Source: Bacteroidales bacterium (GTDB taxonomy: Bacteria > Bacteroidota > Bacteroidia > Bacteroidales > UBA932). Taken from it: a stretch of DNA of 54,952 nucleotides. Positions 3,126-44,604 of the stretch are shown in pieces. The translations under genes and the position numbers were made by a program. Every line of letters begins with the position of its first letter. The stretch's first letter is position 1. The stretch is from NCBI GenBank assembly GCA_017473705.1, contig JAFUJQ010000023.1, positions 1 through 54,952 of the forward strand, written 5' to 3'. A model generated the notes under the pieces. The model ran no database searches. It had not been told where the DNA came from and saw nothing but the letters and a program-made list of their open reading frames with translations.

Positions 3126-5483
3126 ATGATTAAATACATACGGATTATATTTCTTGCGCTGCTGATCATCCCGGTACAGGCCTATGCACAACAAGCGAGG
3201 TGTACAGTTTCCGGACGAGTAATCGACGGGATGAGCTCCCCAGTAGCATATGCATCTGTTGCCGTCTATAAGGATAATTCTCCATTGACCGGAACCATCG
3301 CAGATCATGAAGGAAAATTTTCGCTCAAGGTTGCTCAAGGCACAGATTCTTGTCAGCTAGTGGTTGAATTCATCGGTTACAGCAAGGTTTCTCAAGAGTT
3401 CGTTTCCGATAAATCCCAGCTGAATCTGGGTGCGATTGTTCTGAAGGAGGATGCCATTTCTCTTGAAGGAGCAACGGTCTCTGCGAAGGAGGTTGTTCAG
3501 AAGTCAACTGTCGAACATACCACCATCAACGCTTCGTCGAATATCTCTTCAGGCAAAGGAACAGCCATCGACATTCTCCGTTCAGCTTCTTCTGTAAGCG
3601 TTGCCGACAACGGAATATTGATCCGAGGCAACTCAAATATACTTGTCCTAATGGATGGAGTGCCTACAACTGCAAGTGACCTTTCTACCATACCTGCCGG
3701 CAACATCAAAAGCATCGAGGTCATAACGAATCCGGATGCTTCACATGACGCCTCAGGTACCGGCGGAATCATCAATATCATTTCCAAGAAGACTTCAGCT
3801 CAGGGATTCAGTGGAATTGTCGCTGCAAATTACGGTTTCAATCATTTCGTCACTGCAAATGCAGCCTTTGCTTATAACAAGTCAAAAGCTTCATACAGAT
3901 TCAGTTACAATACGAAATATGAAGATGATGTGGTGAACACCAGCCTTCAGCGAAACATAAAGGCAACCGGTTACAATGTGTTTCAGCAGATGGAGGCGAC
4001 AAGGTATACCTATAACAACAACATCACTCTAGGAGCGGATTTCCGAATCGATCAGCGTAACCGGCTCAGCGTCGACACCAAATGTATCCTCCCTCGCATA
4101 AACATCAGGCAGGATCTCCATAATACATTCACCGACAATTCTGTCGCTACTGACGAGGCAAGACATAATGACGTAACATGGAACCGTGAAAATATTGAAG
4201 GTTCGATTACCTATACACATGTGATCAGACCGGATGTGTCCGATATTTCCGTCAAAGGTTCTGTATCCAAGATATGGGGACACAGACCGTCATATTATTT
4301 CGTGGACGATGAAAAGACCAACTATTCCAACTCCGGGGGAAGTCCTTTCATTTCCGCTTTGCAGGCAGACTATAAGCATAAATTCAAATCCGGAACCCTT
4401 TCTGCAGGAGCGAAGCTTACCTATAGAACGAACGATATTTACCATGAGTTCTATAATTTAAGCAATGGAGCCTGGGAATATTCTGAAGCATTGAGCAACG
4501 ATTTGATACACACGGAGACGGTTCCTGCACTTTATGCAATGTTCGGTTCGCGTATCGGAAAGAAATTCACGTATAAGGCAGGTCTTCGCGGAGAGATGAG
4601 CCGTGTTACATTGGACAGCCGACACGATAATATCTCGCAGACAGACTACACTTTTTTCCTCGCTCCAAGCCTTTCCGGAATATATGACGTCGCTGACGGA
4701 CATGAACTTTCCCTTGCTGTTTCCCGTCGTATAGGACGTCCGACATATCCGCAGCTCAATCCATATATGAGCATGGTTGACGCGACAACATATGAGAAAG
4801 GAAACATGCATCTGCAACCTGAGAAATCAACCAAGCTTGACTTGGGATATAGTCTCAGCCACGGATCATTCAATCTTTTCCTCAATGGATATGTGAATCA
4901 TACCTCCGACTACATCTCGCAAATCACGGTCATCGATTCGCAAAGACTGATCACGACGTATGTGAATGCTGCTTCCGACCTCAAATCTGGTGTAGATTTC
5001 ACTCTTCGCGTCAATCCAGTGAAATGGATGAATGTATCGCTTGCCGCTAACACATATTATGTGGCTACATCTGGTGAGTATGAAGGAGCAGAGATATCCA
5101 ACAAAGGTGTGACAAACAATAGCAATGTACTCTTTGATTTCCTTCCATGGAAAGGTGCAGATATCCAGTGTCAATACTTTGTCTCTACCCCACAATATTT
5201 CCCGCAGCTGACCACTTCCCTCACTCATGAGATGAATGTCGGCTTCAAGCAGAGGTTCCTGAAAGGTGCGATGACTGCATCGATCCTTCTGACTGACGTT
5301 TTCAAGACAGCAAAATGGGAGGTTTCATCGCACAATAACATCTTTGACCTTACTGATATCGCCGCAACAAGAGCCGTATGCTCTGGTTTGGATTTTCATA
5401 TAACTTCAATTCCTTCAAGCAGAAGGCAGACCAGAAGACAGAGTCAGACAGATCACTTATCCGACTCGGACTCTGACAGCTAG
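3126..5483 (+). CDS. TonB-receptor-like outer membrane beta-barrel (OMP_b-brl_3 type), C-terminal frameshift
   Basis: The start MIKYIRIIFLALLIIPVQAY AQ is a signal peptide and is preferred over the ATG at 3054, which lies in the upstream gene. Residues about 25-105 are a CarboxypepD_reg-like domain (CTVSGRVIDGMSSPVAYASV, GTIADHEGKFSL). A plug-like region follows (ILRSASSVSVADNGILIRGN, ASGTGGIINIISKK), then a long barrel. The last residues, from about codon 750, are out of frame. One frame over, 5378-5476 reads SRMLWFGFSYNFNSFKQK then RSLIRLGL-stop, the normal C-terminus of this family with its terminal aromatic strand. The lesion lies near 5350-5375. Loss of the last strand would be expected to harm barrel assembly. 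The substrate is unknown; no SusD partner is adjacent. Confidence 0.85.
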   Translation: MIKYIRIIFLALLIIPVQAYAQQARCTVSGRVIDGMSSPVAYASVAVYKDNSPLTGTIADHEGKFSLKVAQGTDSCQLVVEFIGYSKVSQEFVSDKSQLNLGAIVLKEDAISLEGATVSAKEVVQKSTVEHTTINASSNISSGKGTAIDILRSASSVSVADNGILIRGNSNILVLMDGVPTTASDLSTIPAGNIKSIEVITNPDASHDASGTGGIINIISKKTSAQGFSGIVAANYGFNHFVTANAAFAYNKSKASYRFSYNTKYEDDVVNTSLQRNIKATGYNVFQQMEATRYTYNNNITLGADFRIDQRNRLSVDTKCILPRINIRQDLHNTFTDNSVATDEARHNDVTWNRENIEGSITYTHVIRPDVSDISVKGSVSKIWGHRPSYYFVDDEKTNYSNSGGSPFISALQADYKHKFKSGTLSAGAKLTYRTNDIYHEFYNLSNGAWEYSEALSNDLIHTETVPALYAMFGSRIGKKFTYKAGLRGEMSRVTLDSRHDNISQTDYTFFLAPSLSGIYDVADGHELSLAVSRRIGRPTYPQLNPYMSMVDATTYEKGNMHLQPEKSTKLDLGYSLSHGSFNLFLNGYVNHTSDYISQITVIDSQRLITTYVNAASDLKSGVDFTLRVNPVKWMNVSLAANTYYVATSGEYEGAEISNKGVTNNSNVLFDFLPWKGADIQCQYFVSTPQYFPQLTTSLTHEMNVGFKQRFLKGAMTASILLTDVFKTAKWEVSSHNNIFDLTDIAATRAVCSGLDFHITSIPSSRRQTRRQSQTDHLSDSDSDS

Positions 5484-5647: not shown

Positions 5648-6439
5648 TTACAACAGCCTTGACAGCTCAAGATACTTGTTTCTTGAAACAGGAACAATCA
5701 GGCCGGGCACATTAAGTTCGGCGGTGTACATGTCGTTGACATCCTTCCGTAGTGCCACGATATGGGTTGGATTGACGAAATACGACCTCTGGCAACGGAA
5801 GAGCCCGAACCTGTCAGCGAGGGGCGTTATGGCCGTCATGCTGGTGCGCAGTGTATAATCCCTGACGGTATCTCCTTCCTTGTAGAAGACCGTGATGTAA
5901 TTCTCATCCGCCTTGATGTAAAGGATCGCATCCTTAAGCAGGACTATACGGACCTGGCCGTTCTTGTCGGTGAACCTGACGGATTCCACCTCCCTGACAG
6001 TAGGACTGTTCAATGATATGATCACAAAAACGCCCGTTATGGCGCCATAAGGGACAATGAGTATGAGGAAGGTGTACTGAAGCGAAAGGGCGAGATTGTA
6101 GAAATATGAGCCAGTTCCACTCATAAGGGTAAGATAAAGGGCTATGAAGAAGGTCATTCCCGCCATTTCGACGACTATCCACCCTATGAACTGCCAGAGA
6201 TTGTTGCACAGGAACTTCCGCAGGGCAAAGAACAATGACCTTGTGATGAGAAGAAAGACCATCATTATGCACATCATGATGGTCACATTGAACACAAAAA
6301 GCGACCTTCCCATATCCAGAGCCTCAGGATTGCCAAACGGACGGTAGACTCCCATTATGACAAAAAACATGGCCGGAGTCAGGAAGATATACCAGAGCTG
6401 TGTCGTATATTTCTTAAATATTTCAGGGAACGTTTTCAT
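5648..6439 (-). CDS. membrane-bound LytTR-family transcriptional regulator
   Basis: A 263-residue protein with about four transmembrane helices in residues 15-150 (LWYIFLTPAMFFVIMGVY, VTIMMCIMMVFLLITRSLFF, FIGWIVVEMAGMTFFIALYL, YTFLILIVPYGAITGVFVII). A LytTR DNA-binding domain fills residues 160-263 (ILYIKADENYITVFYKEGD, FGLFRCQRSYFVNPTHIVAL, VPVSRNKYLELSRLL). There is no receiver domain, so it is not a two-component response regulator; the membrane part may sense a ligand directly. It is transcribed away from the biosynthetic operon at 6590-10764. The shared intergenic region carries direct repeats with the spacing expected for LytTR sites, so it probably controls both itself and the operon. 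Confidence 0.9.
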   Translation of the reverse strand: MKTFPEIFKKYTTQLWYIFLTPAMFFVIMGVYRPFGNPEALDMGRSLFVFNVTIMMCIMMVFLLITRSLFFALRKFLCNNLWQFIGWIVVEMAGMTFFIALYLTLMSGTGSYFYNLALSLQYTFLILIVPYGAITGVFVIISLNSPTVREVESVRFTDKNGQVRIVLLKDAILYIKADENYITVFYKEGDTVRDYTLRTSMTAITPLADRFGLFRCQRSYFVNPTHIVALRKDVNDMYTAELNVPGLIVPVSRNKYLELSRLL

Positions 6440-6467
6440 AACTTGACGAAATTTGGGAGCTCAACAT

Positions 6468-6547
6468 TTTGTCACACACACCTTATCTTTGTCACAAATA
6501 TAGCAATTTTGTCACACTCCTGCATCTATAGTCAAGTTTTTTGTCAC
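6468..6547 (+). promoter_or_regulatory. four TTTGTCAC direct repeats, likely LytTR operator
   Basis: TTTGTCAC occurs at 6468-6475, 6488-6495, 6508-6515 and 6540-6547. The first three are exactly 20 bp apart, two helical turns, leaving 12-bp gaps. LytTR regulators typically bind paired direct repeats of about 9 bp separated by about 12 bp. The array lies between the divergent LytTR gene and the operon and overlaps both predicted promoters. Confidence 0.65.
6495..6502 (-). promoter_or_regulatory. promoter -7 element for the LytTR gene
   Basis: On the minus strand TATATTTG fits the Bacteroidetes -7 consensus TAnnTTTG. Transcription would start near 6488, giving a leader of about 50 nt before the ATG at 6439. 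It sits between repeats 2 and 3 of the TTTGTCAC array. No clear -33 TTTG was found. Confidence 0.5.
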
Positions 6548-6571
6548 CAATATGGCGTTTTCATAAATTTG
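6540..6571 (+). promoter_or_regulatory. promoter of the condensation-adenylation-carrier operon
   Basis: TTTG at 6540-6543 and TAAATTTG at 6564-6571 are separated by 20 bp, matching the Bacteroidetes sigma-AB-type consensus. The -33 element is also the first half of the fourth TTTGTCAC repeat, so a regulator bound there would touch or block RNA polymerase. The leader to the ATG at 6590 would be only about 12 nt. Confidence 0.6.
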
Positions 6572-6589
6572 CAGAAATTTAAGTGCGTT

Positions 6590-7435
6590 ATGAAACTTCT
6601 TTTTACAATGTTGCTGGCGGTCTTGCAATTCGCCTCGGTCGACAACGACTTCAAGTACGGAACAGACTACGGAAAATGCAGGGAGACACTTCAGCAGATG
6701 CTGCCTCATGCACAGCCCGGCAAGGAAAAGGCCGAAGTCCTGTGGCGTCTTTCCCGCATCTGTCTGGTATTGGGAGAAAATCAGGAGAATGTAAGTGCAA
6801 AGCGTTCACTATATAAGGAAGGCATGGAATACGCGGCGGCGGGCATAAAGGAAGACCCGAAAAGCGTGAACTGCTACATGTGGCACTGTGCCAACGTCGG
6901 CAGGGAATGTCAGACCAGATCGCTTATGGAACAGGCGGCGGCCGTGCCGGACATGACGGACGATCTGACGACGATTCTGGACAGACTGGGAGCGACAGAC
7001 TGCTCGGAGGCCTGGCAGGCGCTTTCCGAAATGTATTGGCACCACCCCTTCAAATCCGACGAAAGCGCTATAAACTTCGCAAGGAAGGCGGCGACGTGCA
7101 TACCTTCCGATGAATTGAGGATCTCCACCTATACATATCTTGCGGAACTGCTTTACAAGAGAGGATGGAGCAGTTCGAAGAGAATGTCCGAGGCTAAGTC
7201 CAACGCTTCCAGATTTGGCAAGGAATCGAAGTCGAACATAGAAAGATACGCATACTATGACGGAGCGGGGGAAAAGATGCCGTGGTGCAGTTCGCCGTTC
7301 ACAGCTCTTTCTGACAAGGAGGAAGCCGATGCGCTCATATCATATGCGCAGTCCTTATATTCGAAATGCGGAAATCCAACACCCGTAGACAAGGAAGATT
7401 ACAGAAAACTTACTGAACTTATAAAAAACAAATGA
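6590..7435 (+). CDS. secreted TPR-like helical repeat protein, first gene of the NRPS-like operon
   Basis: The ATG at 6590 follows the predicted promoter and begins a signal-peptide-like MKLLFTMLLAVLQFASVD; an upstream ATG at 6443 would translate the operator region and is rejected. The 281 residues are helical with TPR-like features (KEKAEVLWRLSRICLVLGEN, YKEGMEYAAAGIKEDPKSVN, EAWQALSEMYWHHP, INFARKAATCIPSDELRIST). It ends 7 bp before the condensation-domain gene. No enzyme motif is visible. It may be a periplasmic scaffold or an adaptor for the operon's product; that is inference. Confidence 0.75.
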   Translation: MKLLFTMLLAVLQFASVDNDFKYGTDYGKCRETLQQMLPHAQPGKEKAEVLWRLSRICLVLGENQENVSAKRSLYKEGMEYAAAGIKEDPKSVNCYMWHCANVGRECQTRSLMEQAAAVPDMTDDLTTILDRLGATDCSEAWQALSEMYWHHPFKSDESAINFARKAATCIPSDELRISTYTYLAELLYKRGWSSSKRMSEAKSNASRFGKESKSNIERYAYYDGAGEKMPWCSSPFTALSDKEEADALISYAQSLYSKCGNPTPVDKEDYRKLTELIKNK

Positions 7436-7442
7436 CAGAATC

Positions 7443-8792
7443 ATGAACAAGCCCCTATACAGATTCAACTATTCTCAGGACATCGTCCATCTCCAGACAG
7501 TCTATTCGCTATTCAACAGAGTGTCGAACATCATTTTCTCCGTCACTTTTGACGAAGGATTCGACGACACCCTTATGACCAATGCCATCCAGCTGCTGAT
7601 GGAAAGAAACGACTGTCTACGACTCAAGTTCGTGAAGGAAGGGAAAGAGACAAAACAGTATTTCGAAGCGGAAAGGAACATCGGAGAAATCCCGTCAATC
7701 GCTTTCAGCACCAACTGTCAGATGGACTCATTCATCAGAAGGTTCCGCAGAAAGGCAATAAACGTCAGAAAGGGCGAGACCATGAAGGTAGTCTTTGCAA
7801 CAGACCCGACAGGAAGCAGGATGCTCATGATAAAGATCAGCCACATGGTTGCCGACACATACGGCATCGGAATCCTTGTGAACGACCTGAACGCAATCTA
7901 TCAGGCTTTGAAGAACAGGACCGCACTCCCTGTCGCCCCGGGAAGATTCGAAGACATCCTCATCAACGACAGCACCTACAGGGCAAACGATGCCGCCATC
8001 GAAAAGGACAGGGCATTCTTCATAGAATATTATCAGAAGAGACATCCGGACAGACCGGACTACTGCGGAATCCACGGAAACACCAGCGACCACTGGCTCA
8101 AACTGAAAAGAAAGGGAGCGATTTCTCTTCCGTATTTCTTCGTGAAGTGCGACACAAAAGGCTACAGGTTCGTCATACCGGCCGCTATTACAGAGAAGGC
8201 CGCAGAGTGGTGTACAGCCAACAACGTGACGATGAACTCGTTCTTCTTTTATACATGCGCCATCGCCTGCTCGCTCAGGAACGACAGGGCGAAATATCAG
8301 CTTCCGCTGGAACTCCTCAACTGCAGAGGCACCTTGGCGGACAGGAAGGCTGCAGGAACAAAGGTGCAGAGCCTGAGCGTATATACGACAGTGGATTACG
8401 AGAAGACTTTCAACGAGAACATTCTGGCGCTCGCGGCAGAGCAGAACGAACTGTACAGGCACACCAGACTCACCTATCTTGAGATCCAGGACATCGAGCA
8501 CAAGTTGTGGAACTACTCGATGATGAGCCAGATAACAAACTTCTGCTTCTCGTTCATTCCATTCTCAACTCCTGAAGGACTGCATCTGCAGGTATATTCG
8601 AACGGAAAGGGCGCCCTGCCGGCATACATAGCGCTCATGCTCAACGTAAAGACAAATGAAATATATGTCAATTATGACATCCAGACCCAGATGTGCACAC
8701 CGGAACAACTGATTGAATTCCAGAACATATACCTGAATGTCATCGAGACAGTACTTAAAAACCCTGAAACCCGATTAAACGAAATCCTCTGA
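7443..8792 (+). CDS. stand-alone condensation-domain acyltransferase
   Basis: A 449-residue protein of NRPS condensation domain / alcohol acetyltransferase type. The HxxxD active-site motif is visible as SHMVADTYG with His at about residue 134 and Asp at 138; the usual HHxxxDG is varied at the first His and the Gly. The family's N-terminal half (RNDCLRLKFVKEGKETKQYF) and C-terminal lobe (FSFIPFSTPEGLHLQVYSNG) are both present. Such enzymes join an acyl or aminoacyl group carried on a carrier protein to an amine or hydroxyl acceptor. The ligase gene follows after 2 bp and the carrier comes third, so the three can form a complete split C-A-T module. The acceptor cannot be read from the sequence. 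Confidence 0.85.
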   Translation: MNKPLYRFNYSQDIVHLQTVYSLFNRVSNIIFSVTFDEGFDDTLMTNAIQLLMERNDCLRLKFVKEGKETKQYFEAERNIGEIPSIAFSTNCQMDSFIRRFRRKAINVRKGETMKVVFATDPTGSRMLMIKISHMVADTYGIGILVNDLNAIYQALKNRTALPVAPGRFEDILINDSTYRANDAAIEKDRAFFIEYYQKRHPDRPDYCGIHGNTSDHWLKLKRKGAISLPYFFVKCDTKGYRFVIPAAITEKAAEWCTANNVTMNSFFFYTCAIACSLRNDRAKYQLPLELLNCRGTLADRKAAGTKVQSLSVYTTVDYEKTFNENILALAAEQNELYRHTRLTYLEIQDIEHKLWNYSMMSQITNFCFSFIPFSTPEGLHLQVYSNGKGALPAYIALMLNVKTNEIYVNYDIQTQMCTPEQLIEFQNIYLNVIETVLKNPETRLNEIL

Positions 8793-8794
8793 TC

Positions 8795-10525
8795 ATGAAA
8801 TACCGTACAGAACGTGAAATCCAGTCCAAGAGACTTCTCAAGGACGGAGATTACAGGAGCATCAGGGACATGCTTGAAAGAATCAACAGGCAGATTCCCG
8901 ACACAAGCATCCTTGCAGATCTCGATGCAGAAAACAACATAGTATATCACTCAGCATCAGAAATATACGAAGAAGTGATGAACCTGGGAGACGGCTTGCT
9001 CGCCGCAGGTCTCAATGATGCCCACATAGCCATCATTTCAGAAAATTGCTACAGATACGTGATTGCCGACATCTGCATCTCCAGCGGAGTCGGAGTAGTC
9101 ACCCCGATTGACGCAAACGCACCTGTCCAGCTGATGGCGACCCTTCTGGGAAAATGCGACGCCGACGTGGTGCTTTGCGGAACAGAACAGCTCGAAACCG
9201 TACTGCAGGCGCAGAAGGAATGCCCACGCCTCAAGACCGTCATAACCATAGACAGGAAGTCTGAAGGACTTGCAAGTTACGACGAACTGGTCGAAACCGG
9301 CAGAAAGATGGCCTCAGACAGCATTTTCAGAAAGATTGAACTTGACCTCGAGGCTCCGGCGAAGATCCTCTTCACGAGCGGAACTACAGGAGCAAACAAG
9401 GGCGTCGTACTCACGAACGCCAACCTCGTGGCGAATATGCTCAACTGCATGGACGTGATCACTACCAAAGAAGGCACCACCTCCATGAGCATCCTGCCTA
9501 TGCACCATGCGACAGAGATCAACACGCACATCATGGCAAGAATCGGCTGCGGAAGACTTACCTACATCAGCGGCAACATGCGCAACATGATGAGGAACAT
9601 CAAGATATTCAAGCCGGACATCGTGACCATCGTCCCTATGATCGCAAACGCCTTCTACAGGAACATCATGAACGGAGTGAAGAAAGCCGGAAAGGAAGAG
9701 AAACTCCAGAAGGGCATAAAGATATGTAACCTTCTGAACAAGTTCGGAATCGACATCACACACAAGCTCTTCCCTGACGTATTTGCGCCTTTCGGAGGCA
9801 ATCTCAGCCAGATAGTATGCGGAGGCTCAATGCTCAATCCTGTGACCATAAAGGGCCTCTGCGACCTCGGAATCAAGGTGCAGAACGGATATGGAATCAC
9901 CGAATGCGGACCTCTCGTATCAATGAATGCTGACACGCTCATCGAACATCTGAGCATCGGATTTGCATGCCCGGGACTCAAGGTCAAACTTGCCAACACT
10001 GATGACACAGGAGTGGGAGAACTCTGCGTCAAAGGCAAGAGCGTATTCAAGGAGTATTACAAGGACCCTGAGGCAACAGCAGCCGTATTCGACGAAGAAG
10101 GCTATTTCAATACCGGAGACAGCGCACGCATCGACAAGACAGGAAGGATTTTCCTCGTTGGAAGAAAGAAGAACACAATAGTGTTGGAAAGCGGCAAGAA
10201 CGTATGCCCTGAAGAGGTCGAGAACCTCATCGAGGCCAACATGGACTTTGCAAACGAAATCGTCGTATACCAGGCTGAATTCGTCAGCGGACGCTCATCG
10301 CGCCAGATCATATGCGCAGGTATATATATCAGCGACAAGGCCGTACGTGCCGACAGGGACGCGATAAAGGCATGCATCACAAAAATCAACGGCCAGCTTC
10401 CGGACTATAAGAAGATTGAATACGTAGAACTCCCCGAGACGGAATATGAAAAAACATCCACAAGGAAGATCAAAAGATCGACTCTTCCGGAGAAATGTTC
10501 CGGTGAAGGCATAATTACAATGTAA
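8795..10525 (+). CDS. AMP-dependent acyl/aryl ligase (adenylation enzyme)
   Basis: A 576-residue ANL-superfamily enzyme. Core motifs are in order: P-loop FTSGTTGANKGVV (from residue 193), GYGITECGPLVSMN, YFNTGDSARIDKTGRIFLVG, RKKNTIVLESGKNV and the C-terminal catalytic-Lys region STRKIKRSTL near residue 558. It activates a carboxylic acid with ATP and would load it onto the carrier protein encoded 2 bp downstream. It could be a fatty acyl-AMP ligase or aryl/amino-acid activating; substrate-pocket residues were not decoded. It differs from the acyl-CoA ligase at 24078-25712, which has no carrier gene beside it. Confidence 0.9.
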   Translation: MKYRTEREIQSKRLLKDGDYRSIRDMLERINRQIPDTSILADLDAENNIVYHSASEIYEEVMNLGDGLLAAGLNDAHIAIISENCYRYVIADICISSGVGVVTPIDANAPVQLMATLLGKCDADVVLCGTEQLETVLQAQKECPRLKTVITIDRKSEGLASYDELVETGRKMASDSIFRKIELDLEAPAKILFTSGTTGANKGVVLTNANLVANMLNCMDVITTKEGTTSMSILPMHHATEINTHIMARIGCGRLTYISGNMRNMMRNIKIFKPDIVTIVPMIANAFYRNIMNGVKKAGKEEKLQKGIKICNLLNKFGIDITHKLFPDVFAPFGGNLSQIVCGGSMLNPVTIKGLCDLGIKVQNGYGITECGPLVSMNADTLIEHLSIGFACPGLKVKLANTDDTGVGELCVKGKSVFKEYYKDPEATAAVFDEEGYFNTGDSARIDKTGRIFLVGRKKNTIVLESGKNVCPEEVENLIEANMDFANEIVVYQAEFVSGRSSRQIICAGIYISDKAVRADRDAIKACITKINGQLPDYKKIEYVELPETEYEKTSTRKIKRSTLPEKCSGEGIITM

Positions 10526-10527
10526 AC

Positions 10528-10764
10528 ATGAATGTAAAGACAGACATACTGAACATACTCCAGGACTATATCGAGGCTCCTGTGGACGAAATCGCCACTG
10601 ACATGCCGTTCAAGGCAGTGGCAAGCATCGACTCGTTCATGCTGATAGAACTCATTGCCGCCATCGAAGACCATTTCGGGGTCGCAATATCCAATACTGA
10701 CCTGGGAGGCTTCAAGACCATTGACGACATAGTGGCATATGTCGAAATCAAAAATATGGTATAA
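10528..10764 (+). CDS. acyl/peptidyl carrier protein
   Basis: A 78-residue acidic carrier protein. The phosphopantetheine site is VASIDSFMLIEL with Ser at residue 36 (a D-S-F form of the usual D-S-L), followed by the conserved helix IAAIEDHFGVAI and a C-terminal DIVAYVE helix. Last gene of the operon, starting 2 bp after the ligase stop. It carries the acyl group between the ligase and the condensation enzyme. The operon has no phosphopantetheinyl transferase, so modification must come from a housekeeping enzyme elsewhere. A bidirectional terminator follows. Confidence 0.92.
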   Translation: MNVKTDILNILQDYIEAPVDEIATDMPFKAVASIDSFMLIELIAAIEDHFGVAISNTDLGGFKTIDDIVAYVEIKNMV

Positions 10765-19889: not shown

Positions 19890-20933
19890 ATGAGCAGACT
19901 GCCCGCAGAATGGGAGCACCAGAGTGGAGTGCAGCTAACATGGCCGCATTGCGACACCGAGTGGTATGAATTGGAAAAGGTTCTTGAATGCTATGTGGAC
20001 ATAGCATCAAACATTCTTAAATATGAGCCTCTTATGATCGTTACACGCGACATCGAGGAGTGCAAGGCCGACATCGCAAGGATAACAGAGCGCAAGGGGA
20101 TTGCTCTTGACGTGGATTCCATCCGTTTCTATGAGTCTCCGCTCAACGATACATGGGCACGTGACCATGGCGGCATAAGCGTCTTCGGCGACGGTGGCCA
20201 GAAATATCTTTACGACTTCGTCTTCAACGGATGGGGCCTCAAGTTTGCTTCCGACCTTGACAACCAGCTTACAAAGAACATATTCAGCCAGGGAGCGTTC
20301 GAGGATGACGTCATGGGCGTGGACATGCGTCCATATGTCCTTGAAGGCGGCAGCATAGACAGCGACGGCTGCGGCACGATGCTCACGACCACAGAGTGCC
20401 TCTGCTCCGTCAACCGCAACGAATACCTCAGTCAGGAGGAGATCGAGGAGGAACTCTGCGGAGCATTCGGCCTTGAGAGGATCTTATGGCTCGATCACGG
20501 AACCATAATCGGCGACGACACCGACAGTCATGTGGACATCCTTGCCCGCTTCTGCTCTCCGGACACGATAGCATACATGCAGTGCACAGATCCCGAGGAT
20601 CCGCACTATGAGCCGCTCGCGGCCATGGAGAAGCAGCTCCGAGGCTTCAAGATGCTTGACGGCAAGCCGTACAACCTCATCCCGCTTCCGCTTCCGGAGC
20701 CTCTTTATCTTGACGACTACAGACTTCCTGCCTCATATGCCAACTTCTTGATAATCAACGGTGCCGTACTTCTCCCGGGAGCAGGCTCTCCGCTTGACGA
20801 AGTCGCTCGCAAGAGACTCCAGGAGGCATTCCCGGACAGGGAAGTGATAGTGATCGACTGCAGGGCCCTGCTTTCCGGACATGGCTCTCTCCACTGTGTG
20901 ACAATGCAGTTCCCGGAAGGATATCTTCGCTGA
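19890..20933 (+). CDS. aguA: agmatine deiminase
   Basis: A 347-residue member of the peptidylarginine-deiminase-like family that hydrolyses agmatine to N-carbamoylputrescine and ammonia. Motifs: MSRLPAEWEHQSGVQLTWPH at the start, NDTWARDHGGI (substrate Asp), LWLDHGTIIGDDTDSHVD (catalytic His/Asp) and GHGSLHCVTMQFP at the end with the catalytic Cys at about residue 336. The next gene encodes the following enzyme of the pathway. Confidence 0.96.
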   Translation: MSRLPAEWEHQSGVQLTWPHCDTEWYELEKVLECYVDIASNILKYEPLMIVTRDIEECKADIARITERKGIALDVDSIRFYESPLNDTWARDHGGISVFGDGGQKYLYDFVFNGWGLKFASDLDNQLTKNIFSQGAFEDDVMGVDMRPYVLEGGSIDSDGCGTMLTTTECLCSVNRNEYLSQEEIEEELCGAFGLERILWLDHGTIIGDDTDSHVDILARFCSPDTIAYMQCTDPEDPHYEPLAAMEKQLRGFKMLDGKPYNLIPLPLPEPLYLDDYRLPASYANFLIINGAVLLPGAGSPLDEVARKRLQEAFPDREVIVIDCRALLSGHGSLHCVTMQFPEGYLR

Positions 20934-20937
20934 TGCC

Positions 20938-20966
20938 TGTCATTTCGAGCGAAGTCGAAAGAACCA
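20938..20966 (+). repeat. dispersed TGTCATTTCGA repeat, copy 2
   Basis: TGTCATTTCGAGCGAAGTCG lies between aguA and aguB, within the presumed operon. It is a shortened copy of the element at 1093-1128. Confidence 0.65.
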
Positions 20967-20987
20967 TGTAATTTATAAGTTTAAGCC

Positions 20988-21875
20988 ATGAATATATTAA
21001 AGGTAGGAATGGTGCAGCAGAGCTGCGGTAACGACATTCCGGCAAACATCGAGAAACTGAAGTCAAACATCAGGAAATGTGCGGAGCAGGGCGCTCAGCT
21101 CGTGGTCCTTCAGGAACTGCACAATTCAGTGTACTTCTGTCAGCACGAAGAAGCTGCCCTCTGCGACCTTGCAGAGCCGATCCCAGGTCCCTCTACAGAG
21201 ACCTATGGCGCTCTCGCGAAGGAGCTCGGCATCGTCCTCGTCCTCTCTCTCTTCGAGCGCAGGACAGCAGGCATATATCATAATACGGCAGTTGTCATCG
21301 AGAAGGACGGAAGCATAGCAGGCAAATACCGCAAGATGCACATTCCGGACGATCCATGCTACTATGAGAAGTTCTACTTCACTCCAGGTGACATGGGATT
21401 CCAGCCTATAGAGACCTCTGTCGGAACTCTCGGAGTGCTCGTGTGCTGGGACCAGTGGTATCCGGAGGCAGCACGCTGCATGGCTCTCAACGGAGCCCAG
21501 ATGCTCATTTATCCTACAGCGATCGGAGGCGTATATACAGACCCTGTAGAGGAGCAGAAGGTGCAGAGTGACGCATGGCAGCTTGTGCAGAGGGGTCATT
21601 CAGTAGCCAACGGCCTTCCAGTGATCACAGTAAACCGCACAGGACAGGAGGATGACCCTACAGGAAACACCAAGGGCATCAAGTTCTGGGGACGTTCATT
21701 CGCAACAGGCCCTCAGGGTGAGCTCCTTGCAGAGTTCGGAAACGACGAGGAAGGCGTAAAGGTGGTCGAGATCGACCTTGACAGGACAGAGTATGTCCGT
21801 CGCGGATGGCCTTTCTTCCGTGACCGCCGCATCGATGCTTATGGCGATACTATCCTTAAACGTTATGGAAAATAA
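20988..21875 (+). CDS. aguB: N-carbamoylputrescine amidase
   Basis: A 295-residue nitrilase-superfamily protein with the Glu-Lys-Cys triad visible in VVLQELHNSVYF (Glu), KYRKMHIPDDP (Lys) and LGVLVCWDQWYPEAAR (Cys). The YYEKFYFTPGD and FWGRSFATGPQGELLAE segments are typical of plant-type AguB. It converts N-carbamoylputrescine to putrescine, CO2 and ammonia, completing the route begun by AguA. purT follows after 9 bp. Confidence 0.95.
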   Translation: MNILKVGMVQQSCGNDIPANIEKLKSNIRKCAEQGAQLVVLQELHNSVYFCQHEEAALCDLAEPIPGPSTETYGALAKELGIVLVLSLFERRTAGIYHNTAVVIEKDGSIAGKYRKMHIPDDPCYYEKFYFTPGDMGFQPIETSVGTLGVLVCWDQWYPEAARCMALNGAQMLIYPTAIGGVYTDPVEEQKVQSDAWQLVQRGHSVANGLPVITVNRTGQEDDPTGNTKGIKFWGRSFATGPQGELLAEFGNDEEGVKVVEIDLDRTEYVRRGWPFFRDRRIDAYGDTILKRYGK

Positions 21876-25733: not shown

Positions 25734-25759
25734 GGCCGCAGCAATGCGGCCATTTTTGT
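25734..25759 (+). terminator. Rho-independent terminator after the acyl-CoA ligase
   Basis: GGCCGCA / TGCGGCC stem with a GCAA tetraloop followed by ATTTTTG. It overlaps the upstream part of the longest ORF of the next gene, which is one reason to start that gene at 25825. Confidence 0.88.
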
Positions 25760-25824
25760 TATGCGGGATGCAACATGCAGAGGCTGATGTGCATCTAATG
25801 AACCGGACTTACAACAAAGACATT

Positions 25825-26421
25825 ATGAAGAAACTTTCCATTCTTTTAGGCTTGATGCTTCTCCTGCAGCCAGCCGTTTCTGCTCAGGAAAAGGATGATG
25901 CCTTTCCCCGACACGGATTCAAAGTCGGAGTGGCAGGGGTTCCTGTCATTGAGGGACTGATGTTCGGACGATTCGGCGAGAAGTTCCCCATACCTTCTGA
26001 CAATCCTTCCTATATATATAGTGACTATGAGGGCCCCCGTTACATGCTGGGCCATCTGACTGCTGAATACAGCTACAATTGCAGCCGGAAGTTCACATTA
26101 GCTGCAGTGGCATATATGTCGGGCATGTGGAAGAATGTCTATGATTATAAAGGCAACAGGAGAGGAAGAGAATCTTCAGTCTCAGTGCATATTCTCCCGA
26201 CAGCCCGTTTCAAGTATATGGACCGTCCGGCATGCACCTTATATGGATCTGTCGGCATCGGAGCATGGATGTCATATGACGATAACGAATTTATGGCCAT
26301 GCCTTCTGTGCAGGTGGTGCCCCTGGGTGTCACTTTCGGCCGAAAGCTCTACGGCTTTGCCGAATCAGGTTTCGGAATGGCGTTCATAGGTTGGAGTGTA
26401 GGCGTCGGATATAGGTTCTAA
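25825..26421 (+). CDS. outer membrane beta-barrel protein, barrel 1 of three barrel-lipoprotein pairs
   Basis: The start MKKLSILLGLMLLLQPAVSA Q is a signal peptide. The 198-residue product has a small-barrel pattern: HGFKVGVAGVPVIEGLMFG, YMLGHLTAEYSYNCSRKFTL, VSVHILPTARFKYMD, LYGSVGIGAWMSYDDNEF, VQVVPLGVTFGRKLYGFAES and the terminal GVGYRF with the C-terminal Phe needed for Bam insertion. It is closely parallel to the products at 27166 and 28487 (PTARFKYM / PYARFYWV / PSARFYWA; G.T.GR...F.E; GYRF). The lipoprotein gene follows after 11 bp. The function is unknown. Confidence 0.85.
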   Translation: MKKLSILLGLMLLLQPAVSAQEKDDAFPRHGFKVGVAGVPVIEGLMFGRFGEKFPIPSDNPSYIYSDYEGPRYMLGHLTAEYSYNCSRKFTLAAVAYMSGMWKNVYDYKGNRRGRESSVSVHILPTARFKYMDRPACTLYGSVGIGAWMSYDDNEFMAMPSVQVVPLGVTFGRKLYGFAESGFGMAFIGWSVGVGYRF

Positions 26422-26432
26422 ATCAGAGTGTT

Positions 26433-27152
26433 ATGAAAAAGTGTATATTGATTTTGATGCTCTGCATCCCTGTTATAAGTGCCTGTAGGCTGGATTCCGG
26501 TGAGAGTTCCAACTACAGCAGCCTTAATCTTCAGAACTATGCCCGGACAGAAGTCAATTCCAAGGTGATTTTCCCTGTGATCCTGGCGGAGACCGCCATG
26601 TCGGTTGAAGCATATGATAAGATGTCTGCAGAAGAGAAGATGCAGATGGGGTATATCTACAGGACCTTGATAAAGGTGGACGACACCCACTACAAAATGC
26701 AGGACTTCTACACCTTCACATTGAGCACAGGCGGCAGGTCCATCTCCGAGCCAGGTGCGCTGTGGGTGATGACTTCCGGCAAGGACAGATATGAACTTGT
26801 GCATATGCCTGAGGATTCCAACTATGAATACAGGATTTGCTGTTGTTTCCATGATGGTGACTCGCATGTCGTTGATTTCAACTCGGTCGAAGACGAATAC
26901 GCCTATTACAGCTGGGAGATCGTGACCGACTGCATGTGCAGATCGCATACGGGTTATGAGGTGCAGGTCGTCACAGACGGGCCGCTGATCAGGAAAGTCT
27001 ACAGGGGGAATCCTTCATATGTGATGATGGACGGAACCGTGACAGTCAGGATCTCCGGAGATTACGATAAGAATGGCTCCATGGAGGAACTTGACGTTGT
27101 CAAGTGCGGGTATGACGGCTCGGAGGTGAGGAACGACGTTTATGATTTCTGA
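26433..27152 (+). CDS. lipoprotein, partner of barrel 1
   Basis: A 239-residue product with a lipoprotein signal: MKKCILILMLCIPVISACRL, lipobox ISAC. The mature protein is beta-rich with LNLQNYARTEVNSKVIFPVI, AYDKMSAEEKMQMGYIYRTL and GGRSISEPGALWVM. These segments line up with the lipoprotein at 29168 (LQSYSKKVMSETVAMPVEAV, LSDLEKESDYRF, GLSIREEGVTWKLY), so the two are paralogues. No known domain is recognised. It lies between barrels 1 and 2 with gaps of 11 and 13 bp. Confidence 0.8.
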   Translation: MKKCILILMLCIPVISACRLDSGESSNYSSLNLQNYARTEVNSKVIFPVILAETAMSVEAYDKMSAEEKMQMGYIYRTLIKVDDTHYKMQDFYTFTLSTGGRSISEPGALWVMTSGKDRYELVHMPEDSNYEYRICCCFHDGDSHVVDFNSVEDEYAYYSWEIVTDCMCRSHTGYEVQVVTDGPLIRKVYRGNPSYVMMDGTVTVRISGDYDKNGSMEELDVVKCGYDGSEVRNDVYDF

Positions 27153-27165
27153 TAAATGACAGGCT

Positions 27166-27771
27166 ATGAACAGATTCGTTGTAATATTGTCGTTGCTGCT
27201 GGCTTTTGCGTCAGTCTTCGGTGCGCAGGCGGATGAAAAGAGGGACAGACTGCCTTTCAAGCATGAGATCAGGCTCGGCTGGTGCGGCTATCCGTCGATA
27301 GATGCCATGAATTTTACAGGATATGGCAATCTCGGACATTATGAATATACTCCGGTTCAGGACATCTTCATGTCCGATTTCGGCAAGACCTATATGACGG
27401 GAAATATCGTAGCGGAGATTGACTTCCATATCAGGAAATGGTTCACATTTGCCGTCAGTGCGGCAGTCAATCCGATATGGAAGCCTGCGACCGAAGTGTC
27501 GCAGAGGGAAAACGGATATGTCCTGACACTCATGCCGTATGCAAGGTTCTATTGGGTCAACCGCGAAATGGTGAGGATGTATTCTTCGTTGGGCGTCGGC
27601 GTGACTGCAGGACAGATGAAAGGAACATATGACACGATTTCCGAATCCTATCTGTCAGCCCAGCTGGTCCCTATAGGCATAACCGTCGGCCGCAAGGTCT
27701 TCGGATTCGCGGAAGTGGGCTATGGCTCAGTGTATATAGGTGGAATGATAGGTATAGGTTATAGATTCTGA
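27166..27771 (+). CDS. outer membrane beta-barrel protein, barrel 2
   Basis: A 201-residue product with signal peptide MNRFVVILSLLLAFASVFGA. The mature barrel contains HEIRLGWCGYPSIDAMNFTG, TYMTGNIVAEIDFHIRKWFT, VLTLMPYARFYWVNREMVRM, YSSLGVGVTAGQ and AQLVPIGITVGRKVFGFAEV, ending GIGYRF. The GYP-D-MNF and GYxxMDEINF segments of barrels 2 and 3 match. Its lipoprotein partner begins 4 bp downstream. The function is unknown. Confidence 0.85.
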   Translation: MNRFVVILSLLLAFASVFGAQADEKRDRLPFKHEIRLGWCGYPSIDAMNFTGYGNLGHYEYTPVQDIFMSDFGKTYMTGNIVAEIDFHIRKWFTFAVSAAVNPIWKPATEVSQRENGYVLTLMPYARFYWVNREMVRMYSSLGVGVTAGQMKGTYDTISESYLSAQLVPIGITVGRKVFGFAEVGYGSVYIGGMIGIGYRF

Positions 27772-27775
27772 TGAT

Positions 27776-28471
27776 ATGAGAAAGACGGTTATACTTTTAT
27801 TGTCACTCCTTGCAGCAGTTTCATGCAAGGTGTCGGACCTGTCAGATCTTGACGATACGACCAACGACAGAATGACGCGTTTCTGCGCCCAGATCTTCTC
27901 CAAAAATGTGGAACGTTATCTGAAGACTTTCTATGAGGCATACTACATAGCCCGTTTCCTTGAAGCGGATCCCGAAGTGAAGGTGTCGGAGGAATATGAT
28001 CTGGTAAGAACGGAACTCAGGACGGGGAAGGGGACTCATGTCTATAATAACAATGAATTTGCCTATACCGTAGCCGGATTCTTCTCTCTCAAAGGAGGTT
28101 GTGACATAAATATGTCATACAATGACGATGTGGCTGTGAGAATGGTTTCGAAGGACTGCTGGGAGATGCAGGTCAAGGATGCAGACATCTGGCTTGAGGT
28201 GAGGCTCCTTGAAGAAGGGACAGAAGGGATGCACTTGTCGGTGTCGGCATCCGGAACATGCACTGAGAACTCTCCATACAGCGCATCATATGCCATGGAG
28301 GATATGGATGTGAAATTTGATCATCAGAAGAAGATGCTGATCGTTTCAACTTCATATACCGGCCTCATGACGGTGGAGTTCTTCCGCCAGTCGGAGCTGC
28401 TGAGGACCTGCCGCATGACATATTCCGGCCATGCATATCCTCGCTACGAAATAACTGACCATGAGAAATAA
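27776..28471 (+). CDS. lipoprotein, partner of barrel 2
   Basis: A 231-residue product with lipoprotein signal MRKTVILLLSLLAAVSCKVS, lipobox AVSC. The mature N-terminus is helical (FCAQIFSKNVERYLKTFYEA YY), then beta-rich (NEFAYTVAGFFSLKGGCDIN, AVRMVSKDCWEMQVKDADIW). It is the most divergent of the three lipoproteins; size and position match the others but sequence similarity is weak by eye. Unknown function. Confidence 0.78.
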   Translation: MRKTVILLLSLLAAVSCKVSDLSDLDDTTNDRMTRFCAQIFSKNVERYLKTFYEAYYIARFLEADPEVKVSEEYDLVRTELRTGKGTHVYNNNEFAYTVAGFFSLKGGCDINMSYNDDVAVRMVSKDCWEMQVKDADIWLEVRLLEEGTEGMHLSVSASGTCTENSPYSASYAMEDMDVKFDHQKKMLIVSTSYTGLMTVEFFRQSELLRTCRMTYSGHAYPRYEITDHEK

Positions 28472-28486
28472 ACCGAACTTATCGAT

Positions 28487-29155
28487 ATGAAAAGGATTCT
28501 TATTTTGCTGTCGCTCTGCGTAATCATTCCGTTGAACGCACAGGAGAAGCTCAGCGACCGGATCGCACGGGACAAGAAGGAAAACCGTCAGCGTGAACTC
28601 AAGTTCTGGGAGGAATGGCCGTATAAGTTCGAGGCACGCCTCGGATATGGCGGCTATGCCATGATGGATGAGATAAACTTCATCCACGACTGGAATGAGA
28701 ATATTTATGGCCCTGGCTATGATCGTCCTTCCGGACTTGAAGGCCTGTATGCTCCTCAGGATGGTCCTGTGTATATGACAGGGCAGATCTTCGGAGAGTT
28801 CTCATGGCATGCCAAGAGGCGTTTCACCCTGTCGGCCGGACTCTATTTCAATGGTTTCTACGGCTCTCTTGTCGATCCTGACACGGAGCAGCTCATAAGG
28901 AAGAAGCGCGGCGTCTCCGCTACCATCATCCCTTCTGCCCGGTTCTATTGGGCAAATTTCAATTATTGCAGATTATATTCAGATGTCGGCATGGGACTTA
29001 CTGTATGCACATATGACGGAGAGACGGAATTGGCTCCGGCATTCCAGATGACGGCACTCGGAATTACTGCGGGCAGGGAAGTGTTTTTCTTCGTAGAATA
29101 TTCTGCCGGAACTTTGTGCATGGGTGGTAAAATAGGTCTCGGATACCGTTTCTAA
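28487..29155 (+). CDS. outer membrane beta-barrel protein, barrel 3
   Basis: A 222-residue product with signal peptide MKRILILLSLCVIIPLNAQ. It carries an extra charged N-terminal helix (KLSDRIARDKKENRQRELKF) not seen in barrels 1 and 2. The barrel includes FEARLGYGGYAMMDEINF, VYMTGQIFGEFSWHAKRRFT, ATIIPSARFYWANFNYCRLY, SDVGMGLTVCTYDGE and FQMTALGITAGREVFFFVEY, ending GLGYRF. The lipoprotein gene follows after 12 bp. Confidence 0.85.
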   Translation: MKRILILLSLCVIIPLNAQEKLSDRIARDKKENRQRELKFWEEWPYKFEARLGYGGYAMMDEINFIHDWNENIYGPGYDRPSGLEGLYAPQDGPVYMTGQIFGEFSWHAKRRFTLSAGLYFNGFYGSLVDPDTEQLIRKKRGVSATIIPSARFYWANFNYCRLYSDVGMGLTVCTYDGETELAPAFQMTALGITAGREVFFFVEYSAGTLCMGGKIGLGYRF

Positions 29156-29167
29156 ATCATTTTTGTT

Positions 29168-29929
29168 ATGAAGAAGTTATTTGTTTTGATGTCATTCCTG
29201 CCACTGGCGGCAGCCTGCATAGCCGAATATTCGGAGGTGTCTCCGGTTACGGCGCAGAAACTCCAGTCATATTCAAAGAAAGTGATGTCAGAGACAGTGG
29301 CTATGCCTGTCGAGGCTGTCGAATTTGCAATCGCTTTCGATGCATATCTTCAGCTCTCGGACCTGGAGAAAGAGTCTGATTACCGGTTCTTTGGCAACTG
29401 CACGGATATGGGGCAGGGAGTATATGATATTTCTTATCATTCGACAAGAGAGTATCGCCATACATATATGAGGGTTGACACCAAGGGATTGTCCATCCGT
29501 GAGGAAGGTGTGACCTGGAAGCTTTATCTGTTCGAAATGTCAGGCAATGATTTTGACTATTCGCGCCTGGACTTCACCTTCTCGCTTCCGGAGGATTCGG
29601 AAATCACTATGCTCTCGGCTACGGACAGCACCTGGGCTGTAGATATGGGAGAGAAAGGTGTCGCACGAATGAAGATGCATCCCAAGAGGGGAGAGCTGTA
29701 TGAATGGTCTGTCGAGTCGCGAGGAAAGGAAGATACTACCATCGGCATGACTGCAGAGTACGGCACGGTAGGAGGCTTTACGGTACGCGAGAGATATCTT
29801 GAGTCCAAGGAGAAGACCAATGTCTATGACGGAATCTTCAATCTTGACATATATCGCGAAGGTGTTCCTCACGACTACTGCCACATGACATTCACACCAA
29901 ACACAGTGGATGTCAAGACAAGCAGGTAG
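29168..29929 (+). CDS. lipoprotein, partner of barrel 3
   Basis: A 253-residue product with lipoprotein signal MKKLFVLMSFLPLAAACIAE, lipobox AAAC. It is a paralogue of the lipoprotein at 26433: same order of LQ.Y....S..V..PV near the mature N-terminus, the .S..EK segment and a GLSIREEGVTWKLY block. It is last gene of the six-gene array; a terminator follows at 29991. Confidence 0.8.
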   Translation: MKKLFVLMSFLPLAAACIAEYSEVSPVTAQKLQSYSKKVMSETVAMPVEAVEFAIAFDAYLQLSDLEKESDYRFFGNCTDMGQGVYDISYHSTREYRHTYMRVDTKGLSIREEGVTWKLYLFEMSGNDFDYSRLDFTFSLPEDSEITMLSATDSTWAVDMGEKGVARMKMHPKRGELYEWSVESRGKEDTTIGMTAEYGTVGGFTVRERYLESKEKTNVYDGIFNLDIYREGVPHDYCHMTFTPNTVDVKTSR

Positions 29930-36671: not shown

Positions 36672-39600
36672 TTACTGCAGGGGGTTCCAGTCTTTGACGC
36701 ATCTCAGGCTGGTTGCTGTTGAGGAGATGGTGACGTATTTGTTCTGGAAAAACCACGTGATGCCGTCATCGTAGTACAGGTCTCCTCCGAGGCTTCCGTG
36801 TGAGTAATATGAGCAGCTGAGGATCACATGGCTGCCCCACCATGATCCAGGACAATACAGGGACATCATCGCCGCTTCTCGCACATTTGGCACGCGGTAT
36901 CCCTCAGGACAAGGCGAATTGCCCATCTCTATGTCTCTCTTCAGCGTTGCGTAACCGCTATCATATGTGATGAATGAGTCATCGGTCTCAAATCCGTAGT
37001 ATGTACGGCTGCTCTCTCCGTGTTCGTTGTTAGGGATGAGCTCATGGCTGGTGTAGAAACGGACCGACTTGTAATTCATGTTCGACAGGTCGAATCTGTA
37101 GACGCCGCTTCCGACATTCTCCATGACCATCATCGGAGTCGGCACATTGGCACCCTTGTCCGCGATGGAGCTCTCTGTAGGATCCTCCATGCCCAGGTTT
37201 CTCAGACATCTGACACTGTTAGGAGCCTGCTTCTCCCACTCCTTGCCATATCCGGACACCGACACACCCTCCTCGGCCCAAAGCATGTCAGGCCAATACT
37301 TGTCCACATACTGACCGGCATTTGTGATGGTAGTCTGATTGCTGCATACGATATGGTTGCGCCACTGCCACTTTCCGTCAACTCTCGAGTTAGGCAGTGA
37401 AGCCAGAGCTGTCGGATAAAGCTGTGCATCGCTTTCCATGCCCAGGTCACCCATATAGAGGGCATAGATCTGCTGAAGCGAGCCTATGTACCATCTGACC
37501 TCATCCGGATCGATATATCCATTGCCGTTGTTGTCCCTGTTTCTTGCAAGTACGCCATATCGCATGCACTCCATGCCTTCCTTCAGGAAAGTGTTCTGCC
37601 TGTTGTCGGCCAGATTAGGCTGACTGAAGTCCAGATATGAATCCCATCTTTCTCTCTGCTCCTCGCTCTTGAATACTCCGTTGCTGAACAGATTCCACAG
37701 ACACGCAGTGTTGTAGAGGCCGTTATCCACGGAATTATTGCCGAAATCCACATTCCTGAAGCTGTCGTCATTCTCATAGAACGTGAGTCCGTCCTCCCTG
37801 GTCTCATCCACAACCTCGCATCCGAATGCAGTCTTCAGCCCGGCATTGTCGATGTTGTATGGCGTCTGGATGGAACGCTGCCTGAACGTGAAGATGCTTC
37901 CCGTGACCGAACTCTCGCCGTCTTTGCTTGTCCTCGTGTTGCAGAGAATGTGCATCAGCCTGTTAGGCCTGTTCACAAAATCCTTCCATGAAATCGCGAT
38001 CTGCTCCGTTGGGTGGGTCTCATAGTAATACTCGTTGACAAATGCGGTGACATAGATATAGTAATCGCCGTTGCTGTCCGGCAGGAACCGGCTCCTGTTC
38101 ACCCCGGTGAATCCGTTATCCTTGTATTCCTGATAAAGACTTTTCTCCTTCTTGATGAAATCTATCAGCTCCACGATGTTCATGAGCCTTTCGCTGCTTC
38201 CCTGCTCGATCAGCATCTCGTTTTCGTCTCCCGGATATGTCCTGTTGTCCAGCGAATAGCTTCCGCCCTCCGTCTCATTGACGAGGAAAGACACCCATTT
38301 GTAATCAAGGTCACTGAGGTTATATCCGCCTCCGGTCAGCTCAGGAGTGCCTTCCCTTCCGAAAGGAGTCTTCACATAGAAGGTGATCTGGTCTATGTCG
38401 ACATCTTCCGCCTTGAATCCGAACACCCTCTGTCCATAATGGGCGTCAAAGGTGAAATTGGACTCAATGGCAGAATATACATGTCCGGTCGCTCCGGACT
38501 GGTTCTCCTTCTCTTCCTCCACCTCAACCCTGATATTCTCCACGCCATGGATAGTTATGTTGTATGTGTAGTGCGTGTTCCTCCGTATGTCGTAGTCGTT
38601 CAGGTCCTTGCCGAAGTTGCCCAGATGAATGTAGTACACCACGTCTCCGATAAGCTCCTGCATTCCGGTGTCTTCCGTGTCGACCTTCATGTGAAGCTCG
38701 CCGTGGATCTCGATGTAAGTGGCATCCTCGGGAGCATTGAGCCACATGCCCTGCGCAAGATCATAGCTTCCGTCAGCATCCTTGATGCGCTGGTCCCTGA
38801 GATGATAGGCATTGACCTCATTCTTGAGATTGCCGCTTTCCCTGTTCTCCAGAGTGTAGAACGAACAGGTCGCCCCTGTAATGAATCCCTGAGCATTGGT
38901 GGACTGGGTGTCGAACAGCACCTCGCTGTCATAATATCCGGCATCATCATAGTCTGCATCGTCACTGAGCCTCAGTACGTTACATCCTGCAGGCAGCTTC
39001 CTGATCTTGCATGACTTAGGAATGAAGGCCTTGAGCATCTCGTCGTCCGCAAGCTTCACATTCACAGTGACCTTCGCGTCGAGCCTCTCGAGATATACCG
39101 TGCCACCTTCAACAGCGGAAGCCGTCACCCTCACCCCTGAGAGCTCTCCCACCATAGGGAAGTATCCGTTCCTGGAAGTGGTGTGCTGCATCATTTCCAC
39201 AGTCAGTCCCTCCAGCTCCTCCAGCGTGCCGACAGCGCCCAGACGGTCCGAAGATATGTTGAGCATGTCCTCGTCGAGGTTTGCGACAATATAGAGCGTG
39301 GCGCCGGTGGTCTGCGGAGACTTGATACGGACGGTGCCGGTCGTCTTGCCCGCATCCGTCGTCTTGACATACCAGCAGTTCATGTCTGCCGAAATGACCT
39401 CATTCATGTTGTCCAGACGATTATCCTTGTTGAAATAGTGAGAATATATCCTCTGCCCGTCCGGCGTGAAGATGAACACGAACATATTGAGCACCCTGGA
39501 CTCCTGTGTGATGTCCAGAGTGGCCTTGGTGCTGATGCTCACAGGATCGAAATCGACATGGCCGAAATCCACATTCATCCACACCTCTTCCCCTGACAGA

Positions 39601-39692: not shown

Positions 39693-39700
39693 CTCCGACA

Positions 39701-43558: not shown

Positions 43559-43599
43559 TGTTTTGATAAATAAATGGTTGATTATTGATTGTTAAAAGT

Positions 43600-44601: not shown

Positions 44602-44604
44602 GAC

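Follow-up and report, generated by a model that had tools for sequence, protein, structure and literature searches.

Host G-protein-coupled receptors are targets of the fatty acid amides (FAAs) that gut Clostridia make (PMC13142362), and the gene clusters for FAAs were first reported by Chang et al. 2021, as cited in PMC13142362. That paper describes the oleoyl-aminovaleric-acid (Oaa) pathway of Coprococcus eutactus, in which three free proteins, OaaA, OaaACP and OaaC, give amide formation in vitro. OaaC (PDB structure 12KH) is the stand-alone condensation enzyme of the pathway and carries an insertion of 17 residues, with a helix spanning 214-224; the motif given for FAA enzymes is (D/H)HxxxD, with S, A or G as the next residue in 95% (PMC13142362). 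Condensation enzymes of this type make fatty acyl amides and are described as homodimers that holo-ACP opens. Here we describe a five-gene locus from a Bacteroidales bacterium (assembly GCA_017473705.1, contig JAFUJQ010000023.1, positions 1 to 54,952, hereafter the window) that encodes a stand-alone condensation enzyme (C) related to OaaC, an adenylating ligase (A), an acyl carrier protein (ACP), a TPR-fold protein and a divergent membrane LytTR regulator. We consider it probable that the operon is a Bacteroidales FAA pathway furnished with a secreted TPR carrier and a membrane LytTR switch. All five genes are open frames, and the last four follow one another with intergenic gaps of 7, 2 and 2 bp:

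5648..6439, minus strand: membrane LytTR regulator, with transmembrane (TM)-like segments in the N-terminal half and the DNA-binding LytTR domain C-terminal (Pfam LytTR PF04397, E 3.5e-13)
6590..7435, plus strand: TPR-fold protein with a signal-peptide-like start and a putative lipid-carrier role (Pfam PF21033 RMD1-3, E 1.5e-7)
7443..8792, plus strand: stand-alone condensation enzyme C, OaaC-like, active site SHMVADT (Condensation PF00668, E 3.1e-22)
8795..10525, plus strand: adenylating acyl ligase A, fatty-acyl type by resemblance (AMP-binding PF00501, E 3.7e-53)
10528..10764, plus strand: ACP with phosphopantetheine Ser36 (PP-binding PF00550, E 2.1e-13)

The preliminary description of this DNA had read the locus as a divergent membrane LytTR gene and four tightly packed genes, and the coordinates, gaps and Pfam domains agree with it. 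The HMVAD that it noted in C is H134-D138, of which H134, A137 and D138 are invariant across 27 aligned C proteins. The serine of its D-S-F in the carrier is S36, which is invariant in the 21 aligned ACPs; the residue before it is N in five of them.

The condensation enzyme and the recurrence of its gene set

With a profile of 27 C proteins, the best solved relative of C was 12KH (E 7.7e-36, residues 3-449), which was also the sole full-length match; the next, PvdL (E 5.8e-18), matched the front part only, at residues 39-180. A tree of 52 rows placed the single OaaC sequence and 31 Bacteroidales C proteins in one clade (100/99) apart from 20 nonribosomal peptide synthetase (NRPS)-type C domains; L040, L044 and L049 were dropped from this tree as too short, and L061 was not used. 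Between OaaC positions 195 and 245, OaaC has 51 residues and the Bacteroidales C proteins have 50-53 (31/31), while the NRPS-type domains have 28-35 (20/20). The OaaC-type insertion, around OaaC 214-224, is present in all 31 of the former and in 0/20 of the latter, and the catalytic H and D are kept in 31/31 Bacteroidales C proteins. The AlphaFold model of C has a C-domain fold (pLDDT 90.6), and 12KH is not among the 50 structure matches listed for it from a structure library to 8 April 2026. Judged by sequence, C is a relative of OaaC and probably groups with it.

The two partner proteins were compared over 19 sequences of A and 21 of ACP; the alignments of TPR and LytTR covered 20 and 13, in each case of the loci having the gene. 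A resembles the fatty-acyl ligases, its best NCBIfam match being PRK06187, a long-chain fatty acyl ligase family (E 6.6e-59, versus 2.5e-31 for amino-acid adenylation), with both scores under the curated cut-off. The TSGTTG loop of A and K558, presumably the C-terminal catalytic lysine, are invariant in all 19. A second A-like ligase in the source genome (G000:C6:18855-20426) was considered and set aside, as no C or ACP was recognised by eye among its neighbours.

We scanned genome contigs of 84,980 species with a C alignment and obtained 30 loci. Twenty-eight of them (L006-L033) are in Bacteroidales or Bacteroidia metagenome-assembled genomes, with C identity of 47-81%, and the host or organ, when given, is rumen, reticulum, omasum or horse faeces (buffalo, yak, sheep and horse); in the remaining two, C identity is 22%. 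The counts below refer to 29 loci, the window plus L006-L033, all found through C. Adjoining C are TPR in 24, A in 25, ACP in 26 and a divergent LytTR gene in 17, and the five-gene set is complete in 13, including L029, in which A is read as two frames. Two of the three loci without ACP (L015, L016) are cut by a contig end before it. The genes named in the preliminary description are thus kept together elsewhere, with synteny conserved in most of the 29 loci, and because the unit recurs in relatives we do not regard the gene set as chance. Variants occur: in L018 (9001-11224), L019 and L023 there is no adjoining A or TPR, C-ACP precedes a further gene that is of one family in all three (with an HD domain in L018), and the divergent LytTR gene is kept; L014 has C alone. 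Two C genes per operon are found in L008 (7623-10350) and L029 (6767-10350), where the two upstream copies group together (100/94), perhaps serving another acceptor.

Within the family of the window's own genome, C is present in 5/149 genomes, and the set of five is identical for TPR and for A at more than 1000 bits. Lower-scoring A-like matches (346-395 bits) turn up in four genomes, of which two lack C. The operon looks like an accessory trait, since C is absent from all ten genomes listed for the genus of the window. Among 393 order-level and 395 phylum-level genomes, with the best few candidates per genome scored, the window's own C was the sole full-length match, and the others were partial and nearly all within long frames. 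Eight plasmid records carry OaaC-like genes, five annotated as NRPS and three without a listed gene.

In the selection of neighbours that was annotated, no gene family beyond the five was common to more than five of the 29 loci. Conserved extra biosynthetic genes beside the operon were accordingly rejected as a candidate: in this selection downstream genes mostly differ, with one in common among the near-copies L007, L009 and L020. The TonB receptor at 3126-5483 was also rejected as a part of the system, with one weak match among relatives (L018, 25%). We note two further gene pairs near the operons of relatives. L032:17715-19345 (minus strand) has a second ACP beside a 463-aa acyltransferase-like protein (PF07247 alcohol acetyltransferase, under cut-off), a carrier-acyltransferase pair different from that of the operon, and L024:5061-7105 (minus strand) has a second AMP ligase and ACP just past the LytTR gene and on its strand.

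The divergent LytTR gene and its repeats

The window regulator combines TM-like segments and a LytTR domain, its sole Pfam match, in one protein. The following elements lie between it and the TPR gene:

6468..6475, plus strand: operator-like repeat 1, TTTGTCAC, exact
6488..6495, plus strand: operator-like repeat 2, TTTGTCAC, exact
6495-6502: CAAATATA, overlapping repeat 2 and reading TATATTTG on the minus strand, a possible -7 element of the LytTR gene by eye, with no clear -33 partner
6508..6515, plus strand: operator-like repeat 3, TTTGTCAC, exact
6540..6547, plus strand: operator-like repeat 4, TTTGTCAC, overlapping a -33-like TTTG (6540-6543)
6564..6571, plus strand: -7-like element TAAATTTG (TAnnTTTG), 20 bp downstream from that TTTG

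The TTTG at 6540-6543 and TAAATTTG look like a Bacteroidetes-type promoter just upstream of the TPR gene; Bacteroides promoters are described as containing TATCTTTG (PMC6193735). Repeats 1 to 3 (6468, 6488, 6508) are spaced 20 bp, with 12-bp gaps, and the window holds two 20-bp-spaced TTTGTCAC pairs against 0.02 expected (at most two mismatches). Repeat 4 sits 52 bp from repeat 2, a spacing that also occurs in relatives. Canonical LytTR sites are 9-bp direct repeats 10-13 bp apart (PMC6193735, PMC11347149), and CoxC, a membrane-bound one-component LytTR repressor, has 8-bp repeats at 18-21-bp intervals that overlap the -35 (PMC11347149). The TTTGTCAC repeats have LytTR-operator geometry near a predicted promoter, and their role as an operator is predicted from sequence. 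Repeat 4 lies over the -33-like element, a position typical of repressor sites, and repeats 1-3 lie upstream, as activator sites do, so that either direction of regulation would fit.

We compared 13 of the 17 LytTR loci (without the near-copies L009, L019, L020 and L027) with 10 of the 12 others (without L016 and L017), using first-order Markov shuffles. A pair of 8-mers, at least 7/8 alike, occurs at a lag of 20 in 10/13 LytTR loci versus 1.21 expected (0/200 shuffles), and in 0/10 loci without LytTR, which reach up to 3/10 at lag 21. It was the window that first drew attention to the motif; with the window left out, the count is 9/12. Eight of the ten pairs are of GTCAC or a close kind. LytTR control of the operon is supported, because the operator-like repeats go with the LytTR loci.

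Elsewhere in the searched genome the paired motif (at most two mismatches) occurs at two further sites, and a reversed control pattern at 0. At one of these sites a second membrane LytTR gene (C154) follows 46 bp downstream; the other (C5) is not beside a LytTR gene. The second LytTR gene of the source genome (L088:5797-6760) is preceded by TTNGTCAC-type repeats, has no C gene close by and perhaps belongs to a wider sensor family.

The proposed pathway and its rivals

ATG 6590, rather than the first TTG at 6443, is the most likely start of the TPR gene, because of a signal-peptide-like N-terminus and the -33/-7-like elements at 6540 and 6564. From 6590 the protein begins MKLLFTMLLAVLQFAS. It looks secreted, since a hydrophobic stretch falls within the first 35 residues in 18 of the 20 aligned homologues; the TPR proteins of L028, L030 and L033 have textbook signal peptides by eye. 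Its closest folds in structural alignments are the TPR domain of PTPIP51 (7cc7, 19% identity), a phospholipid-transfer protein, and BstC (7t1s, 17% identity), a sterol-transport protein (PMC10942540 for BstC), from which we infer a possible role as a lipid carrier.

We propose that A would activate a fatty acid with ATP and load it onto ACP, and that C would transfer the acyl group from acyl-ACP to a small amine that diffuses freely, the reaction that OaaC carries out in Coprococcus. The resulting lipid amide would enter the membrane, and the secreted TPR carrier may take it up on the periplasmic side and either shield it or hand it to the outer membrane. LytTR is predicted to bind the TTTGTCAC repeats, spaced 20 bp, in the region that separates the two transcripts, and would switch the operon in response to an envelope or membrane signal.

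Several observations weigh against this FAA pathway. (i) The identity of C to OaaC does not exceed 23%, the branches of the C tree are long, and a tree that groups the Bacteroidales C proteins with four NRPS-type rows and leaves OaaC outside is not rejected (p-AU 0.136); the sequence comparison with the Oaa set covers C alone. (ii) Just ahead of the catalytic His, the 31 C proteins have S (27), C (3) or N (1) and never D or H, and just behind the catalytic Asp 28/31 have T, where the paper leaves about 5% to residues other than S, A or G. (iii) Four of the 29 loci lack an adjacent A and 12 lack an adjacent LytTR gene (L015 has less than 300 bp upstream), with a divergent AraC gene in its place in L021 and L030; among the LytTR loci, the lag-20 pair is absent from L007, L010 and L023, and two of the ten pairs (L018, L025) are of other sequences than the GTCAC kind. 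(iv) No phosphopantetheinyl transferase (PF01648) was found in the 71%-complete source genome, which we take as a result of its incompleteness. (v) With no sixth family in more than five loci among the neighbours annotated, the operon has no amine source linked to it. About 9 kb from it, at 19890-21875, genes with PF04371 and CN_hydrolase (carbon-nitrogen hydrolase) lie in tandem; we take these to be, probably, agmatine deiminase and N-carbamoylputrescine amidase of putrescine synthesis, so putrescine may be present, and nothing ties it to the operon. (vi) TPR folds are common protein-binding scaffolds, and PF21033 matches just 3 of the 20 TPR members.

The last point bears on the role of the TPR protein. 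That it is an ordinary protein-binding scaffold, not tied to lipid carriage, is a serious possibility, if not the one we favor. We think it unlikely that the acyl acceptor of C is a hydroxyl or the head group of a lipid, giving an ester or a structural envelope aminolipid whose outer-membrane placement the TPR protein helps. The departure of the C motif from the FAA pattern at two positions, the resemblance of the TPR fold to lipid and sterol binders, and a secreted-looking TPR protein that accompanies C in 5/5 genomes would suit such a product; however, OaaC, the nearest characterised relative, makes amides (PMC13142362), and no further family among the neighbours annotated is shared by more than five of the loci.

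Similarly doubtful is a closed signaling circuit, in which the lipid amide is exported with the TPR protein and sensed by the membrane LytTR protein, which feeds back on the operon, as in quorum or host-lipid sensing. The divergent regulator-synthase layout, the membrane-embedded regulator and the operator-like repeats between the two genes are consistent with it, and membrane-bound one-component LytTR regulators are known (CoxC, PMC11347149). Yet the 12 operons without LytTR, two of them with AraC as a substitute, speak against it, as does the second membrane LytTR gene, which carries similar repeats away from any C gene and so suggests a more general sensor. We give little weight to a self-contained lipid-amide signaling module of herbivore-gut Bacteroidales, in which an N-acyl amine is made and carried by TPR and LytTR senses the amide, the amine or the fatty acid; if true, this would be the equivalent, for a lipid amide, of a synthase-receptor pair. 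Finally, a fragment of a broken NRPS megasynthase or a papA-like enzyme unrelated to the carrier, the latter raised in the preliminary description as a degraded papA/acetyltransferase, is highly improbable: the C fold is common to NRPSs, but C is an intact single-domain protein beside TPR, A and ACP in most of the 29 loci, it groups with OaaC in the tree of C proteins and carries the OaaC-type insertion, and no other condensation domain was found in the searched part of the source genome.

Three other regions of the window drew our attention. At 25744-29929, outer-membrane-barrel-like and lipoprotein-like proteins alternate, by eye a tandem gene expansion. A possible fimbrillin-type cluster spans 36672-45900, with DUF4906 and sub-threshold FimA matches in 36672-39704 and the remainder assigned by eye. 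At 47489-50926, a 1145-aa protein has a signal-peptide-like start followed by long coiled-coil-like repeats, with weak Pfam matches below cut-off.

Comparison with described systems

The preliminary description had seen in the stand-alone C, A and ACP a set that could make an acylated amine or ester. This stands in principle; what it overlooked are the like sets in gut Clostridia. Its suggestion of a product that may act, or be sensed, at the envelope takes a more definite shape from the TPR fold, with its likeness to a phospholipid-transfer domain and a sterol-transport protein. Its statement that no such Bacteroidales cluster was recognised is borne out, in that we found no characterised Bacteroidales set, and no description of a Bacteroidales form with TPR and LytTR, in our search of openly licensed papers. 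The main text of PMC13142362 has no word beginning Bacteroid-, and its set of FAA C domains may include some Bacteroidales sequences. FAA chemistry itself is already known from Clostridia. If a second phylum had it too, such lipids could come from more sources, here in the guts of buffalo, yak, sheep and horse. The Bacteroidales set brings a linked regulator and a candidate carrier, neither described for the Coprococcus cluster in PMC13142362, and it is small enough for reconstitution from three purified proteins.

Like the Oaa cluster, the window operon has a discrete A and ACP with a stand-alone C beside them, and its C is homologous to OaaC over the full length, with the same insertion and the same catalytic H and D. 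Unlike the Oaa cluster, it is found in Bacteroidales and not Clostridia, and its C has the motif SHxxxDT and no more than 23% identity. The Oaa cluster is described as three proteins (PMC13142362), whereas the window operon adds a TPR gene and a divergent membrane LytTR gene with repeats. The C domains of NRPS megasynthases differ in that they carry HHxxxDG inside a multi-domain protein, and the window C is a 449-aa single-domain protein. The TPR protein has a fold similar to the lipid-binding TPR proteins of the BstC/TatT/PTPIP51 kind, the comparison being one of overall fold.

The regulator resembles CoxC (PMC11347149): in both, a TM sensor and LytTR are fused, the direct repeats are 8 bp long and lie about two turns apart, and the operator, putative in the window, reaches the -35/-33. 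CoxC, however, has an MHYT domain and senses CO, whereas the window protein matches LytTR only, and the repeat sequences differ. The LytTR regulatory system (LRS)-like operons of Bacteroides likewise have a Bacteroidia LytTR regulator with TM segments and direct repeats upstream of a TATCTTTG promoter, but they have a separate membrane partner (NfeD-like, DUF2154) and 11-bp repeats (PMC6193735); the window LytTR gene is alone on its strand beside a TonB-receptor gene. In the Streptococcus-type LRS, a soluble LytTR protein and a separate inhibitory membrane protein share one operon, whereas in the window TM-like segments and LytTR are joined in a single protein.

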